This document shows positions 57,023-64,000 of a stretch of DNA of 64,000 bases, piece by piece. Origin of the DNA: Candidatus Sulfurimonas marisnigri (GTDB lineage: Bacteria > Campylobacterota > Campylobacteria > Campylobacterales > Sulfurimonadaceae); contig NZ_CP054493.1 in assembly GCF_015265475.1 (NCBI RefSeq), forward strand, positions 124,001-188,000, in the 5' to 3' direction. The notes below the pieces were generated by a model, which was given only the letters and a program-made list of their open reading frames with translations, was not told the DNA's origin and ran no database searches. The position numbers and the translations under genes were made by a program. Within the stretch, counting starts at the first letter, position 1. Every line of letters begins with the position of its first letter.

Positions 57023-58015
57023 ATGGCACTTAAAGTAGCAATAAATGGAACAGGTCGTATAGGAATTAGTGTAGCTAAAATCATAGCATCTCGTGATGAT
57101 GTTGAGCTAGTAGCAATAAACACAACTGCAAAGCATGATATGCTTGAGTATCTTTTTAAGTTTGATAGTGTTCATAAAGGCATTGATGCTAAAGTAATTG
57201 ATGATAAAACAATAGAAATTGATGGTAAGAAAGTAGCACTGTTTTCTACTCGTAGCCTTGATGAGCTTGATTTTGGTTCTGCTGGCGCTGAGTTAGTTAT
57301 TGAGTGTACTGGTGCATTTTTGACAACAGAAAAAGCACAGGGTTATCTGAAAAATGGTGTTAAAAAAGTTGTTATGTCTGCACCTGCCAAAGATGATACA
57401 CCTACTTTTGTTTTAAATATTAATACAAATGATTATAAAGGTGAAGCAATCATATCTAATGCTAGTTGTACTACAAACTGTTTAGCTCCAATCTGTAAAG
57501 TTCTTGATGATACTTTTGGAATTGAGAATGGCTTGATGACTACAATTCACTCATACACAAATGATCAAAATATACTTGATGTAAAACATAGCTCTGATAA
57601 GCGTCGTGCACGTGCAGCGGCTATAAACATGATTCCAACTACGACAGGAGCTGCTAAAGCAATAGCTAAAGTTATGCCACACCTTAAAGGTAAACTAAAC
57701 GGTTATGCTATGCGTGTTCCTACTCCAAATGTGTCTGTAGTTGATTTAACAGTTAATCTAAAAAAAGAGACAACCGTTGAAGAGGTAAATGCAGCTTTTA
57801 ATGCAGCAGCAGCAGGAGAATTTTTAGGTTTAATAGAAATTGATAACGATAAACGTGTTTCTAGTGACTTTATCGGTTCTACTTACAGCTCTTCTTACAT
57901 ACCTGATATGACTAGCCTAGTTGATGGCAAGACACTAAAAGTACTTGCTTGGTATGATAATGAGTGGGGATACAGCAGCCGACTTGTTGATATGTGTGTG
58001 CTTGTCGGAAAGTAA
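57023..58015 (+). CDS. gap: Glyceraldehyde-3-phosphate dehydrogenase, type I
   Basis: This 330-aa enzyme shows the Rossmann start KVAINGTGRIGISVAK and active-site Cys149 (SNASCTTNCLAP) with the later histidine in THISYTNDQ-type sequence (here TIHSYTNDQ). The segment after the second strand is INTTAKHD, without the aspartate that normally holds the NAD ribose, so dual or NADP use is possible. It heads a six-gene sugar operon (pgi, glucan phosphorylase-like, pfkA, CBM48 protein, nucleotidyltransferase fusion) and would run glycolysis or gluconeogenesis there. AAGGA precedes the ATG. Confidence 0.94.
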   Translation: MALKVAINGTGRIGISVAKIIASRDDVELVAINTTAKHDMLEYLFKFDSVHKGIDAKVIDDKTIEIDGKKVALFSTRSLDELDFGSAGAELVIECTGAFLTTEKAQGYLKNGVKKVVMSAPAKDDTPTFVLNINTNDYKGEAIISNASCTTNCLAPICKVLDDTFGIENGLMTTIHSYTNDQNILDVKHSSDKRRARAAAINMIPTTTGAAKAIAKVMPHLKGKLNGYAMRVPTPNVSVVDLTVNLKKETTVEEVNAAFNAAAAGEFLGLIEIDNDKRVSSDFIGSTYSSSYIPDMTSLVDGKTLKVLAWYDNEWGYSSRLVDMCVLVGK

Positions 58016-58018
58016 GTA

Positions 58019-59263
58019 ATGCTGACATTTCAAAAATATTTTCCTCTTGAAGATACTCCAGAGAATGCGAGTATTATGCAAAGTGCTATGGCAGTTGTAA
58101 AAGATGAAATGCAGAGTAATCAAATTGGTTATTATAAATTGCCATCAAATTCACTATCGCTTCTTGAGAGATTAAAGGAGATAGATAGTGGTGTATTTAC
58201 GCAAATTATAATTATCGGTATTGGAGGCTCTTCACTTGGAATTAAAGCGATTGATTCAATTTTACGCCCCTACACACCAAATGCTAAAGAGGTTTTGTAT
58301 TTTGAAAATTCTGACCCTATAACAATATCTGAAACATTAACTAAAATTAAAAAAGACAAAGCTGCATTTTTTATAATCTCAAAATCAGGCTCAACCATTG
58401 AAACAACTTCAATTTTAAAAACTGTTATTGCCACATGTAAGTTAGACCTTGATGGAGTTGACCGTAAACGTGTTTTTGCTATTACCGATAAGGACTCTGC
58501 ACTCTCAAAATTTGCCCAACATCACAATCTTAAGGAATTTAATATACCTGATAATGTTGGAGGACGCTTTTCTGTGCTTAGTGCAGTTGGTGTGGTGCCA
58601 CTTCAAATGGCAGGTTATGATGTGCAAAATATTTTAAAAGGTGCACAAGAGTTTATAACAAGTTTTTTTGAAGGAGGTGAGAATCATCTACTTGAAAAAG
58701 CGTGCTACATGTACATTAATTCTAAGAATCATGGCATTAATGTTCTTTTCTCTTATGCTGACCATCTTGAAGGTTTAACAAAGTGGTATGTACAGCTTTG
58801 GGGTGAGTCACTCGGTAAAATAGATTTTAATGGCAATAGAGTAGGACTAACACCTATCGGATTAATTGGTTCAGTTGATCAGCACTCGTTTTTAGAACTT
58901 ATTATTGAAGGACCTCACGATAAAAGTGTTACCTTTATAAGTATTAAGGATGCCGGAAATAATCTTAAAATTCCAGATATTTCACTTTATGGTATTGAGA
59001 AGACAGACTTTATCAATAATCAAAGTTTCAACACACTTATCAATGCCCAGTGCGATGCTACAATGCAGAGTGTTATTCAGTCTGATATAGCAGTTGATGC
59101 TATTTCTTTTGACAAAGTAACACCTGGAAATATTGGTGCAATTATTATCTATTATGAGCTATTAACCTCACTTATGGGTGCGATGCTTATGATTAACACC
59201 TATAATCAACCAGGTGTAGAGCTTGGTAAAGAAATTCTATATAAAAATTTAGAAAAAAATTAA
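58019..59263 (+). CDS. pgi: Glucose-6-phosphate isomerase (short form)
   Basis: This 414-aa enzyme has IGIGGSSLGIKAID and the sugar-phosphate loop SKSGSTIETTS, with the catalytic glutamate in NVGGRFSVLS and the histidine in SVDQHSFLELI. The length matches short bacterial PGI forms, not the roughly 550-aa E. coli type. It interconverts glucose-6-P and fructose-6-P, linking stored glycogen to glycolysis. It follows gap by 3 bp and precedes the phosphorylase-like gene by 10 bp. Confidence 0.94.
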   Translation: MLTFQKYFPLEDTPENASIMQSAMAVVKDEMQSNQIGYYKLPSNSLSLLERLKEIDSGVFTQIIIIGIGGSSLGIKAIDSILRPYTPNAKEVLYFENSDPITISETLTKIKKDKAAFFIISKSGSTIETTSILKTVIATCKLDLDGVDRKRVFAITDKDSALSKFAQHHNLKEFNIPDNVGGRFSVLSAVGVVPLQMAGYDVQNILKGAQEFITSFFEGGENHLLEKACYMYINSKNHGINVLFSYADHLEGLTKWYVQLWGESLGKIDFNGNRVGLTPIGLIGSVDQHSFLELIIEGPHDKSVTFISIKDAGNNLKIPDISLYGIEKTDFINNQSFNTLINAQCDATMQSVIQSDIAVDAISFDKVTPGNIGAIIIYYELLTSLMGAMLMINTYNQPGVELGKEILYKNLEKN

Positions 59264-59273
59264 AGGAAATTTT

Positions 59274-60923
59274 ATGAATCTATTCTCATATGATATTAAC
59301 GAAAAGTACAAGACATCAGTTGCATACTTTTCTATGGAATTCGCAATTGATCAGGCTTTAAAAATATACTCTGGTGGTCTAGGGTTTCTAGCAGGGTCAC
59401 ATATGCGCAGTGTTTTTGATCTTAAGCAAAACGTTATCGGTATAGGTATGCTTTGGAGTTTTGGCTATTATGACCAATCACGAAATGAAAACCGCTCTCT
59501 TAGACCGCAATATACACGAAAACATTACTATTTTCTAGAAGAGCTTGACGTTAAAGTAACTGTAAAAATTCATGGTGAAGATGTTATGATCAAAGCATTT
59601 TTGGTACGTCCAGATATTTTTGGTACAGCACCGATGATTCTTCTCTCAACAGATATTCCTGAAAATGATTATCTTGCACAAACTATTACTCATAAGCTCT
59701 ATGATGGAAATGAGCGTACCCGTGTGGCACAAGAGATAGTTTTGGGAATCGGCGGTACAAAAGTTCTTGAAGCTTTAAATCAATCAATAGATATTTATCA
59801 TATGAATGAAGGGCATTCTCTACCTCTGGCTTATGAACTATATTCACGATATAAAGATATGGATGAAGTGCGCAAGCATGTTGTTTTTACAACACATACT
59901 CCAGAAAAAGCTGGTAATGAAGAGCACAATATTCACTTTTTACATGAGATGGGTTTCTTTAGTAATCATTCACTTGCTGAAGTTCGTCAAATTACCGGCT
60001 ACAACAATGATGATAATTTTAGTCTTACTGTTGGTGCACTGAGAGCTTCTAAAATAGCAAATGGGGTATCTAAGATTCATGGTATAGTTGCTAATGAGAT
60101 GTGGGCAAATGTTGAAAATAAATGTGAAATTATTTCAATAACAAATGCTCAGAATAAAAAGTATTGGACTGATAAAGCACTGATACGTGCACTTGATGAA
60201 CATGAAGATTATGAAGTCATAGCACGAAAAAAGCATCTTAAAAAAATTCTTTTTGAAATAGTAGCAAATCAAACAGGAAAAATATTCAACCCTGAAGTAT
60301 TAACTATAGTCTGGGCACGACGCTTTGCAGAGTATAAACGACCAGGACTATTAAAATATGATATTGACAGATTTATAAAATTTATTAAAAATACAGACAG
60401 ACCAGTACAGATAATATGGGCAGGAAAACCTTATCCAACTGATGAAGGGGCTATGGAAATATTTAATGAACTTGTACATATGAGCCATTATTATAAAAAC
60501 ATGGCAGTTCTTGTGGGGTATGAACTGTATCTATCACGTCTTATGAAAGAGGGAAGTGATGTGTGGCTAAATACACCTCGTATTACACGTGAAGCTAGTG
60601 GTACAAGTGGTATGACAGCTAGTATGAATGGTTCAGTTCACTTGTCTATTGATGATGGCTGGCATCCTGAGTTTGCTCTAGATGGTAAAAACGCATTTAC
60701 TATCCCCGCACTTGACCATAAGCTTCCTATTGAAGAGCAGGACCGTATAGATAATAAAAATTTGATGGATATTTTAGAGAATAAGATTATTCCAATTTAT
60801 TATGATGAGCCAGCTAAATGGACAGAAATCATGAAAAGCGCTATGACAGACGTTGAGTTCGAGTTTAATTCAGGCCGTATGGTAGCGGAATACTATATAC
60901 ATATGTATGACTATAAAAGTTGA
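59274..60923 (+). CDS. Alpha-glucan phosphorylase-like protein (GT35) lacking the PLP lysine
   Basis: This 549-aa protein has the short-type glucan phosphorylase pattern: YFSMEFAI with SGGLGFLAG, HMNEGHS, TTHTPEKAGNE, WARRFAEYKRP and a C-terminal EASGTSGM segment. The family PLP lysine lies directly after that methionine (GxxMK); here residue 448 is threonine (codon ACA, 60615-60617). Without it pyridoxal phosphate cannot be held covalently, so normal phosphorylase chemistry is in doubt. The gene sits between pgi and pfkA, beside a glycogen-binding protein, so a glycogen role is still likely. AAAGGA precedes the ATG. Confidence 0.85.
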   Translation: MNLFSYDINEKYKTSVAYFSMEFAIDQALKIYSGGLGFLAGSHMRSVFDLKQNVIGIGMLWSFGYYDQSRNENRSLRPQYTRKHYYFLEELDVKVTVKIHGEDVMIKAFLVRPDIFGTAPMILLSTDIPENDYLAQTITHKLYDGNERTRVAQEIVLGIGGTKVLEALNQSIDIYHMNEGHSLPLAYELYSRYKDMDEVRKHVVFTTHTPEKAGNEEHNIHFLHEMGFFSNHSLAEVRQITGYNNDDNFSLTVGALRASKIANGVSKIHGIVANEMWANVENKCEIISITNAQNKKYWTDKALIRALDEHEDYEVIARKKHLKKILFEIVANQTGKIFNPEVLTIVWARRFAEYKRPGLLKYDIDRFIKFIKNTDRPVQIIWAGKPYPTDEGAMEIFNELVHMSHYYKNMAVLVGYELYLSRLMKEGSDVWLNTPRITREASGTSGMTASMNGSVHLSIDDGWHPEFALDGKNAFTIPALDHKLPIEEQDRIDNKNLMDILENKIIPIYYDEPAKWTEIMKSAMTDVEFEFNSGRMVAEYYIHMYDYKS

Positions 60924-60969: not shown

Positions 60970-61929
60970 ATGGCTTTAGCAATAATGAGTTCAGGCGGCG
61001 ATGCACCTGGTATGAATCCGGCAATTAAAAAGTTTGTTGATTATACCCATAAAAAAGGTGAAGAGTCTTATCTTATTTATGATGGTCTTGAGGGCTTGAT
61101 TGATAATAAGATTAAAAAAGCAAGTCACAAAATTGTTGCCGGTATCATCCATAATGGAGGCACAATAATTCGTTCATCACGCTCCAAGCGATTTTTTGAG
61201 CATGAGTACAGACAAAAAGCTTTTGATAACCTAAAAGCTCACAATATTACAGGCTTGGTTGTTTTAGGTGGGGATGGTTCATTTAGGGCTATGGAGAAGT
61301 TTAGTTCAGAGTTTGATCTCAACTTTGTAGGTATCCCATCAACAATTGATAATGACATATATGGAACAGAATATTGCTTAGGTGTTGATACTGCACTAAA
61401 TGTTATACGTGATGCTCTTGATAAAATACGTGATACGGCAACCTCTTTTAACCGTGCTTTTTTAGTTGAAGTTATGGGGCGTGATTGTGGATACCTAGCA
61501 ATTGTATCATCTATGATTAGTGGTGCTGAGGTATGTGTAATTCCAGAAGTACCGTTTAATCCAAAGTCACTAGAAAAAAGACTTAAAAAAGAGGTCAAAG
61601 AGGGACGAAACTATATCCTTGCTATTGTCGCTGAAGGAACAAAAAAGACAAGCGAAGTTCATAGCTGGTTGCAGGATAGTTTTGGTCTAGAAACCCGTGT
61701 AAGTATTCTAGGTCATATTCAGCGTGGTGGTAATCCAACTGTGTATGACCGTATGATGGCATTTGATTTTACAATCATAGCTGTTGACCATCTCCTTACT
61801 CACACTGATTCTAGCAAGGTTGTAGTTTATCAAAAAGGTGATTTTAAACTACTTGATATAAAAGAAGTTGTATCTAATAAATATATGATGCCCCAGCATT
61901 ATTTAGATGCTATAAACTATTTAGATTAA
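60970..61929 (+). CDS. pfkA: 6-phosphofructokinase (ATP-type)
   Basis: This 319-aa PfkA carries the ATP loop MSSGGDAPGMNPAI, GGDGSFRAM, the catalytic PSTIDNDI aspartate, the MGRDCGYLA substrate site and HIQRGGNPTVYDR. The glycine-104-type residue in GGDGS favours ATP over pyrophosphate. AAGGAGG lies at a good distance before the ATG. It makes fructose-1,6-bisphosphate and commits the operon to glycolysis from glycogen or hexose phosphate. Many autotrophic Campylobacterota lack PfkA, so its presence is worth noting. Confidence 0.94.
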   Translation: MALAIMSSGGDAPGMNPAIKKFVDYTHKKGEESYLIYDGLEGLIDNKIKKASHKIVAGIIHNGGTIIRSSRSKRFFEHEYRQKAFDNLKAHNITGLVVLGGDGSFRAMEKFSSEFDLNFVGIPSTIDNDIYGTEYCLGVDTALNVIRDALDKIRDTATSFNRAFLVEVMGRDCGYLAIVSSMISGAEVCVIPEVPFNPKSLEKRLKKEVKEGRNYILAIVAEGTKKTSEVHSWLQDSFGLETRVSILGHIQRGGNPTVYDRMMAFDFTIIAVDHLLTHTDSSKVVVYQKGDFKLLDIKEVVSNKYMMPQHYLDAINYLD

Positions 61930-61940
61930 AAGGATAAAAC

Positions 61941-62219
61941 ATGGTAAAGATTACAGCAAAAGGTCAAAAAGCTTGGGTTACATTTAGTGTTATGCCAAAT
62001 GACGGAGATAGTGTAGCTATTTGTGGTGAGTGGAGTGATTGGAAAGATGAGCCTATGAAGGTTAAGAAAAGCGGTGAATTTTATATCACAAAAGTTCTTC
62101 CTTTAGATAACGATTATCAATTTGGTTATCGCATAAATGAAAATAGATGGGAGTGTGACAGTGAGTTAGGGAATATTCTATCACCATTTGGTTCTCATAA
62201 CACTTTATTAAAACTTTAA
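61941..62219 (+). CDS. Stand-alone CBM48-type glycogen-binding domain protein
   Basis: This 92-aa protein consists of one isoamylase-N/AMPK-beta-type carbohydrate-binding domain. VTFSVMPNDGDSVAICGEWSDW is the typical opening, FYITKVLPLDNDYQFGYRI the middle and NRWECDSELGNILSP the end. There is no catalytic domain. It probably tethers neighbouring enzymes to glycogen or senses the glucan. It follows pfkA by 11 bp. Confidence 0.88.
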   Translation: MVKITAKGQKAWVTFSVMPNDGDSVAICGEWSDWKDEPMKVKKSGEFYITKVLPLDNDYQFGYRINENRWECDSELGNILSPFGSHNTLLKL

Positions 62220-62303: not shown

Positions 62304-64000
62304 GTGAAAGCAGTAGTAATGGCAGGTGGATTCGGTACAAGAATTCAACCACTTGCAAATTCTAGACCAAAGCCAATGTTGCCAATTGTAAATCGTCCGA
62401 TGATGGAACATACTATGATGACGTTGAAAAATCTTGGCATTGAAGAGTTTATAATACTTTTATATTTTAAGCCTGAGATAATTCAAGACTATTTTAAAGA
62501 TGGTAGTGACTTTGGAATTAAAATTACATATGTTATACCAGATGATGATTATGGTACAGCAGGAGCGGTGAAATTAGCTCAAGAGTATATAGGTGATGAT
62601 AATTTTATTATAATTAGCGGTGACTTAGTAACTGACTTTGACATGCAGGGCTTTTTTGACTTTCATGAAAATAAAAAATCAAAACTCTCTATTGGTTTGA
62701 CATCTGTTGAGAATCCATTGCAGTTTGGTGTTGTAATCGCAAATGAAGAGAATGTGATAGAAAAGTTTCTTGAAAAGCCAAGTTGGGGTGAGGTTTTTAG
62801 TGATACTATAAATACTGGCATCTATATAATTGAACCTGAAATTCTAAGTTATATACCTAAGGGTAAAAACTTTGATTTTGGAAAAGATCTGTTTCCTTTG
62901 ATTATGAAAGAAGAGATTCAGCTTATGGGTTATAACTTTGAGGGATACTGGCGTGATGTCGGTAATCCTGAAAGTTATCGGGATGTATATTCAGATATTT
63001 TAGGAAATCGAGTTAATTTTCCAATCCCTGGGAATAAAGAACTCTACACTAGTGGTGTATTGTATAGCGACAAACCGTATAAACTCGATAAAAGTATAGA
63101 GATTATGGGTAATGTTGTACTTGGTAAAAATGTAACGATTGAAAAGGGTGTTAAGCTTAATAATGCTGTTATAGGTGATAACGTAAAGATTGGAAGCGAC
63201 AGTAGTATTTTCAATAGTGTTCTTTGGGAAAATATAGTTGTTGAAAAAAATGTGCGACTAAATAACAGCGTTATATGTAATGACAATGTAATTAATAAAC
63301 ATGTTAATGTTAAAGCAGGATTGATATTAGCTGAGGGTTGTGAGATTGGTGAACTGACGACTTTTGAGCAAGATGTTACAATCTGGCCTGATAAAAAAAT
63401 TGAGCCAGCCTCTATTGTTAGTAACAATGTAGTGTGGGGAAGCCGCTATAAAAACTCAATTTTTGAAAACGGAAGCGTATCAGGTAAAAGTAATGTTGAG
63501 CTTTCATGTGAGATGGCTACTAAATTAGCAGAAGCTTTTGCTGCTCAACTCCCAATCGGCTCAAAGGTGATTATAGCATGTGATTACGATAAGAGCTCAC
63601 GAATGCTCAAGAGAGCATTTTTAAGTGGTCTTCTCTCTGCTGGAATAAATGTTGTTGACCTTAGAAGAACTCCTCCGTCAGTACTGCGATACGCTCTAGT
63701 AAATGATGATAACTTTATTGGTGGTGCGTATGTTGAGCAGTCTCTTATGGATGCTACTGGCTCGCAGATTACACTATTTAATGAAGAGGCACTTCGTATT
63801 GATTCTAATTCGGCCAAAGCGATTGAGAAAGCTTTTTTTATTGAAAAATTTCGTCGTGTTGAACACTCTAAAATAGGTTCTATCTATGAGACAGTAAATG
63901 CCAGAGAGGCAAGTTTATATAAAAAGGCTGTTGAGGACAAGTTTGCAGGCACAATTAATAATGCCAACTTCAGTGTTTCGATAGATTTAATGTATGGAAC
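62304..64000 (+). CDS. Sugar nucleotidyltransferase / phosphomannomutase-like fusion (3' end outside window)
   Basis: The frame opens at GTG 62304 and runs past the window end, so at least 565 residues are coded. Residues 1-230 form a nucleotidyltransferase (KAVVMAGGFGTRIQPLANSRPKPMLP; ISGDLVTDFD; LEKPSW; GYWRDVG). A left-handed beta-helix follows (about 250-370; MGNVVLGKNVTIEKGV). From about 380 the sequence is phosphohexomutase-like (IACDYDKSSRMLKRAFLSGLL), but the usual phosphoserine loop TASHNP is replaced by AYVEQSLMDATGS. Fusions like this are called mannose-1-phosphate guanylyltransferase/phosphomannomutase. The mutase half is probably inactive or altered. It would supply GDP- or UDP-sugars, or ADP-glucose for glycogen. 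Confidence 0.85.
   Translation, partial: MKAVVMAGGFGTRIQPLANSRPKPMLPIVNRPMMEHTMMTLKNLGIEEFIILLYFKPEIIQDYFKDGSDFGIKITYVIPDDDYGTAGAVKLAQEYIGDDNFIIISGDLVTDFDMQGFFDFHENKKSKLSIGLTSVENPLQFGVVIANEENVIEKFLEKPSWGEVFSDTINTGIYIIEPEILSYIPKGKNFDFGKDLFPLIMKEEIQLMGYNFEGYWRDVGNPESYRDVYSDILGNRVNFPIPGNKELYTSGVLYSDKPYKLDKSIEIMGNVVLGKNVTIEKGVKLNNAVIGDNVKIGSDSSIFNSVLWENIVVEKNVRLNNSVICNDNVINKHVNVKAGLILAEGCEIGELTTFEQDVTIWPDKKIEPASIVSNNVVWGSRYKNSIFENGSVSGKSNVELSCEMATKLAEAFAAQLPIGSKVIIACDYDKSSRMLKRAFLSGLLSAGINVVDLRRTPPSVLRYALVNDDNFIGGAYVEQSLMDATGSQITLFNEEALRIDSNSAKAIEKAFFIEKFRRVEHSKIGSIYETVNAREASLYKKAVEDKFAGTINNANFSVSIDLMYG

Follow-up and report, generated by a model that had tools for sequence, protein, structure and literature searches.

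Can a glucan phosphorylase relative dispense with the lysine that holds its cofactor, pyridoxal phosphate (PLP)? The question is raised by one gene in the 64,000-nucleotide stretch of Candidatus Sulfurimonas marisnigri DNA analysed here (the window). An open reading frame at 59274-60923 on the plus strand encodes a 549-aa protein (containing NTPRITREASGTSGMTASMNGSVHLS) that family models assign to the GT35 phosphorylases, with 450.1 bits against TIGR02094, the alpha-glucan family phosphorylase model (cut-off 191.7), and 52.1 bits against Pfam Phosphorylase PF00343 (cut-off 27). The protein reached the cut-off neither of the classical model TIGR02093 (47.8 vs 552.9 bits) nor of the GT5 GlgA model TIGR02095 (36.3 vs 328.45 bits). 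The initial annotation had placed a threonine at the PLP-lysine position and located it at 60612-60617. These six nucleotides encode M447 (ATG) and T448 (ACA), the latter being the residue concerned, at 60615-60617 (+), within the motif EASGTSGMTASMNG (residues 440-453; 60591-60632, +). Two alignments bear the assignment out: T448 lies opposite the lysine of the best PDB relative, the Segatella copri glycogen phosphorylase 9l6i (EASGTSGEKAEMNG; EASGTSGEK), and opposite K646 of E. coli MalP, which is the PLP lysine according to PMC11046441. The 549-aa protein has Thr448 in place of the lysine that forms the Schiff base with PLP. A normal GT35 gene elsewhere in the genome was considered and ruled out, as a search of its one contig, rated 100% complete, gave no second GT35 match.

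The simplest account would be an ordinary phosphorylase altered by a sequencing error or by a recent private mutation, and in its favour ACA is one base from AAA. Relatives were drawn from 60 close genomes, 298 Campylobacterota genomes, 63 named contigs, the genomes of ten of the loci on these contigs, and 296 genomes of Bacteroidota, the phylum of the Mucilaginibacter locus L107. Residue 448 was read in 150 distinct sequences, after rows with no match across the site, rows alike over a 120-residue stretch and the E. coli locus had been set aside. Among the 130 that share 45% identity or more with the query (its own sequence included), from Campylobacterota and Bacteroidota, it is Thr in 86, Ser in 43, Ala in one and Lys in none; below 45% identity it is Lys in all 20. 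Six additional members of the first group, which we call the Thr/Ser branch, split evenly between Thr (3) and Ser (3). With Thr, Ser or Ala in 130/130 sequences, from many assemblies and in several codon families, error or private mutation is refuted and keeps next to no probability. The single-base distance from lysine, to which the initial annotation had drawn attention, is true of the gene's own codon and irrelevant, and the orthologues do not restore the lysine. The change at 448 is old, because all four ACN codons (ACA, ACG, ACT and ACC) are used for Thr, and both AGY and TCN codons for Ser.

A quick-method tree was computed from 45 branch and 16 Lys-type sequences (61 in all) with the motif columns removed, and it carries long-branch warnings for L120_K, L180_K and others. 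In it the branch is separate (SH-aLRT 100) and the type changes once, in a direction that we infer to be loss of the lysine. When all four letters are counted, the same tree requires 13 changes, so that Thr, Ser and Ala exchange often. The one Ala belongs to L033, the sole GT35 protein of genome G110, and a hydroxyl at 448 is therefore not strictly needed. The nearest Lys-bearing relative found, L180 (G580:C1:2322168-2323766; 40-42% identity), has TNGVH in place of TNAQ, is short as in the branch (574 aa) and is a good outgroup for the change. Two branch copies occur in each of four genomes: in G342, G344 and G448 the second copy carries Ser at 448 and shares 50-51% identity with the query, and both copies in G539 (51-52% identical to the query) have Thr. 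A 46-residue piece just upstream of the full gene in another genome (G189:C3:274437-274574), 85% identical to the query N-terminus, is perhaps the remnant of a tandem copy.

Apart from the lysine, the catalytic and phosphate-binding residues are kept. In an alignment of 101 members, limited to proteins of at least 500 aa and without the duplicates L001-L003, 13 positions that we take to serve catalysis or phosphate binding in phosphorylases show no variation: G34, G35, H208, N291, W298, R349, R350, Y354, K355, Y416, E440, G443 and T444, the counterparts of MalP G114, G115, H346, N450, W457, K534, R535, Y539, K540, Y614, E638, G641 and T642, respectively. Besides the motif around residue 448, which holds E440 and T444, several of them fall in NAQNKKYWT (residues 291-299; 60144-60170, +), with N291 and W298, in RRFAEYKR (residues 349-356; 60318-60341, +), whose arginines and lysine stand at MalP K534, R535 and K540, and in GYELYLSRLMK (residues 415-425; 60516-60548, +), whose tyrosine stands at MalP Y614 and presumably packs on the PLP ring. 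MalP K534 and K540 coordinate the PLP phosphate, according to PMC11046441; the K534 position is Arg in the branch and also in the Lys-type TIGR02094 rows. Altogether, at least 99 of the 101 members agree at 165 positions.

The branch is under purifying selection and strong constraint. The dN/dS ratio is 0.036-0.050 in three close pairs of branch genes and 0.04-0.09 in three more distant pairs with dS of 1.5-2.4. For the window's own gene, dN is 0.135 and dS 1.51 against L059, and 0.134 and 2.03 against L060; against its nearest relative, L004, dS is saturated and gives no value. A pseudogene was rejected on the intact reading frame and the low dN/dS in related pairs. The initial annotation was right that a family member without the PLP lysine has its other motifs intact, whereas its suggestion of an inactive enzyme, one of three alongside non-covalent PLP and a different glycosyltransferase, is disfavoured by the invariant catalytic residues and the low dN/dS.

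The predicted fold is that of solved phosphorylases. An AF2 model of the 549-aa protein (pLDDT 88.8, pTM 0.90) adopts a GT-B fold and matches 9l6i with a VIA Z of 35.0 (rmsd 2.0 over 536 residues, 31% identity), MalP (1l5v) with a VIA Z of 31.8 and starch synthase IV (6gne) with a Z of 31.1 over 456 residues; TMq to 9l6i and 20yr is 0.90-0.91. Within this fold, 33 positions are kept in at least 93% of the 45 branch rows and present in at most one of the 16 Lys-type rows. Q293, two residues past the active-site Asn, is Gln in 130/130 branch sequences and in 0/20 of the Lys type. Five of the 33, G415, E417, L418, S421 and K425, fall in segment 415-425 around Y416, a crowding with p 0.0005 if the segment is chosen beforehand, and 8.4% of random placements have an equally dense window (p 0.084). 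K30 hardly varies in the branch, and most Lys-type rows have Pro at this position; it is not special to the branch, however, since 9l6i, with a normal PLP lysine, also has Lys there.

Remodelling of 415-425 beside kept phosphate-binding residues would fit a protein that had reverted to a nucleotide-sugar glucosyltransferase, its PLP pocket holding the nucleotide of NDP-glucose and the alpha-glucan being lengthened. A residue 448 that stays small (Thr, Ser or Ala) agrees with this, and in an hhalign comparison G415 and S421 match GlgA (GYELYLS vs GYHEAFS in the E. coli protein). PLP has been suggested to have entered a proto-GT35 NDP-sugar enzyme by replacing a nucleoside monophosphate (PMC11046441). 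The whole profile, however, is no closer to GlgA than that of the Lys type (hhalign E 5.7e-6 vs 1.1e-10), and its TNAQ motif does not resemble that of GlgA, the E. coli protein having LNGVD.

The neighbourhood bears on this reading as well. The initial annotation spoke of a glycolytic operon, and glycolytic genes are indeed present on the plus strand: GAPDH (57023-58015) and phosphofructokinase (60970-61929), both assigned by domain and family models, and glucose-6-phosphate isomerase (58019-59263; PRK03868, 542.1 bits, cut-off 487). That description is incomplete, however, as the whole is a glycogen operon with glycolytic genes. On the same strand follow a 92-aa glycogen-recognition (AMPK1_CBM) protein (61941-62219; 29.8 bits, cut-off 26.8) and a nucleotidyltransferase-phosphoglucomutase fusion (62304-64000), which is cut by the window end and 832 aa long in locus L122 (304-2802). 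The fusion joins nucleotidyltransferase, left-handed helix and phosphoglucomutase domains and could make the operon's sugar nucleotide from glucose-6-phosphate; its presence favours the nucleotide in the pocket. Past it, after the window, L122 holds a GH57 protein, a GH57 amylase/glucanotransferase, a GalT-like protein, GlgA, a ROK-family kinase, a second GlgA and GlgB. The ROK kinase and the two GlgA genes that flank it span L122:7905-11597, and these GlgA are 36% and 61% identical to the GlgA of L116.

In the four Lys-only Campylobacterota genomes read (G175, G264, G307 and G061), the counterpart operon includes a Lys-type protein of 698-712 aa (4/4), encoded ahead of the same run of genes, which begins with the nucleotidyltransferase fusion and ends with GlgB. 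This speaks against a nucleotide-dependent branch enzyme. The G061 operon has one GlgA against two in the window's own genome. Both GT35 types are found in one operon in G053, and within a few kilobases of each other in G080, G082 and G087. A scan of 18 Bacteroidota loci gave no match to the operon proteins among the neighbours of the branch genes, the Pfam scan covering seven proteins of two loci.

A GT35 match was found in 44 of the 298 Campylobacterota genomes, the window's own included: 38 belong to the Thr/Ser branch, five have the Lys type only and one has pieces only. Among the 38, the branch protein stands alone in 28 and is accompanied by a Lys-type match in 10. Genomes were assigned to these types by identity, and residue 448 was afterwards inspected in each of the 38 branch genomes, in four of the five Lys-only genomes and, for the Lys type, in two of the ten genomes with both. 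GlgA over the cut-off also occurs in 44 of the 298 genomes, 43 of which have a GT35 match as well (the own genome included); one genome has GlgA alone and one has only GT35 pieces. The latter, G103, has a GT35 match in three weak pieces (G103:C1:456684-458225) and no GlgA over the cut-off, a pattern that looks like pathway decay. We also considered that the branch protein might be the synthase where GlgA is absent; this was rejected for Campylobacterota, as GlgA is over the cut-off in the own genome, which has two GlgA genes, and in 37/37 of the other branch genomes.

Ten genomes with both types would suit a pseudoenzyme, a pathway regulator that binds glycogen or sugars, and the loss of the cofactor lysine is itself in keeping with it. 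The invariance of the other catalytic positions checked in 101 members, together with the 165 nearly identical positions, nevertheless makes such a regulator improbable.

A wider set consists of 67 genomes, 28 from Campylobacterota and 39 from Bacteroidota, picked since earlier searches had shown only the branch type in them. When their Pfam Phosphorylase matches were compared by eye with the known places of branch genes, only branch proteins and no other GT35 were matched (67/67). A glycogen synthase is present in 62 of these 67. Of the 39 Bacteroidota, 27 have GT5 GlgA over the cut-off, compared with 20 of the 21 Lys-type genomes of the same panel; among the remaining 12, six have a GT3 synthase, one (G467) has a putative GT4-like synthase next to GlgC (a 401-aa reading frame assigned by inspection) and in the other five GlgA, GT3 synthase, GlgC and GlgB all fail to reach the cut-off. 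GlgB is over the cut-off in 32/39 branch genomes vs 6/21 of the Lys type, a difference that points neither way. Many Bacteroidota genomes also encode, besides or in place of full GlgA, proteins of mostly 258-325 aa whose match to the GlgA model is confined to its first half. No Lys-type match was found in the 33 branch genomes of the 296-genome Bacteroidota panel, although this separation of the types may only follow kinship.

With a synthase already in 62 of the 67 branch-only genomes, and two GlgA in the own genome, a nucleotide-sugar glucosyltransferase is a possible but on the whole unlikely identity for the branch enzyme. A narrower claim, that the PLP pocket now holds the nucleotide part, reversing the proposed step from NDP-sugar glucosyltransferase to phosphorylase, with residue 448, Q293 and 415-425 as the record of the swap, we likewise regard as unlikely.

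The product of the reaction can be approached through the companion enzymes. Full-length TIGR01132 phosphoglucomutase occurs in 16 of the 28 branch-only Campylobacterota genomes and in 14 of the 15 with a Lys-type match, a count made up of 24 genomes over the cut-off and six with a full-length protein just under it. Its absence in 12/28 vs 1/15 gives a Fisher p of 0.017, kinship being ignored, and speaks against glucose-1-phosphate as the product. The own genome has one such phosphoglucomutase, far from the operon. In addition, six of 60 sources (the window and 59 loci) encode an in-frame fusion with a ROK kinase at the N-terminus of the branch protein, and in four more the kinase lies directly upstream of the branch gene; the neighbourhood table behind this count leaves out L096, where an antisense reading frame had been chosen. 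The six fusions, with almost no linker, come from MAG contigs (L087:3428-5989, L088:7095-9689, L091:1429-4008, L092:5613-8207, L098:2378-4750 and L113:3542-5743, the last two cut by the contig end).

Kinase fusions and missing phosphoglucomutases would be explained if the branch enzyme cleaved alpha-glucan without phosphate, by hydrolysis or glucosyl transfer, and the free glucose were then phosphorylated by the ROK kinase. The fused or adjacent cases in the tree (L087, L089 and L091), however, form one Campylobacterota group and could reflect a single event, the operons of all four Lys-only genomes read likewise have a ROK kinase, and free glucose could be supplied by the operon's GH57 amylase/glucanotransferase. 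Phosphate-free cleavage would, moreover, leave the kept phosphate-binding residues without an obvious use, and we consider it quite improbable.

The reading we prefer, at a rough probability of 0.4, is that the branch lost the PLP lysine once on the tree and stayed a working alpha-glucan enzyme, likely replacing the ordinary phosphorylase without covalent PLP. A working enzyme on the breakdown side is favoured because constraint is strong, the catalytic set is kept, the Lys type occurs in the corresponding operon of other genomes and synthases of different families occur beside it. In this GT35 (TIGR02094-type) branch of Campylobacterota and Bacteroidota, we infer that catalysis persists and that the enzyme would, most likely, remove glucosyl units from alpha-1,4-glucan in place of the ordinary phosphorylase. 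PLP in phosphorylases acts through its phosphate, not its aldehyde, so that catalysis could survive without the Schiff base as long as the pocket is filled by a phosphate-bearing ligand. Such a ligand, either loosely bound PLP or another phosphate compound, would be gripped non-covalently by the residues that normally bind the phosphate of PLP and that of the substrate. A ligand free of any tie to the protein would agree with the always-small residue 448 and with the remodelling of 415-425, as far as sequence can tell. Proton exchange with the PLP phosphate is described for phosphorylases in PMC11046441.

Several observations count against the preferred reading. Since a Lys-type match is present in 10 of the 38 branch Campylobacterota genomes, and lies within a few kilobases in G053, G080, G082 and G087, the two types need not share a job. 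A product other than glucose-1-phosphate is suggested, though not strongly, by the kinase fusion and the gaps in phosphoglucomutase, and the GlgA-like residues, with the idea put forward in PMC11046441, lean equally gently towards a nucleotide in the pocket. Also to be counted are the five of 39 Bacteroidota without GlgA, GT3 synthase, GlgC or GlgB over the cut-off, the lower share of GT5 GlgA (27/39 vs 20/21) and the unmatched neighbours in 18 loci.

Among the literature matches listed, which cover few subscription papers, there was no description of a GT35 branch without the PLP lysine. With no PLP lysine in its sequences, the branch is not to be classed among the PLP-dependent phosphorylases; it belongs to GT35 by descent and may work like one, and the name 'glycogen phosphorylase' is not safely transferable to its members. 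As a branch without the linking lysine that is the sole GT35 in all 67 genomes chosen for showing this type alone, it makes it possible to test whether nature can do without the Schiff base, and also whether a PLP pocket can revert to a nucleotide pocket. Mostly glycogen-storing bacteria of two phyla may process sugar chains by a different chemistry.

Compared with known systems, the branch is nearest to the TIGR02094/GT35 phosphorylases such as 9l6i, with which it shares the GT-B fold and all aligned catalytic and phosphate-binding residues except one; it differs in having Thr/Ser for the PLP lysine, in Q293 and 415-425, and in length, with 549 aa in our protein against 852 aa in 9l6i, whose residues 101 to 716 the match spans. 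Relative to E. coli MalP/GlgP, MalP H346, N450, W457, R535, K540, Y614, E638, G641 and T642 are identical in the branch, whereas K646 is replaced and K534 is Arg, as in the Lys-type TIGR02094 rows. GT5 GlgA has the GT-B fold and the GY....S segment in common with the branch and occurs alongside it in most genomes, but sequence kinship is weak (profile probability 85.5%) and the branch has EASG where GlgA has EPCG. The retaining trehalose phosphorylases of GT4, which are not known to carry PLP, set a precedent beyond GT35 for phosphorylases of a retaining GT family; they belong to another family, act on another substrate and were compared through the literature only. GT4 and GT35 share the same likely front-side mechanism, according to PMC8950772.
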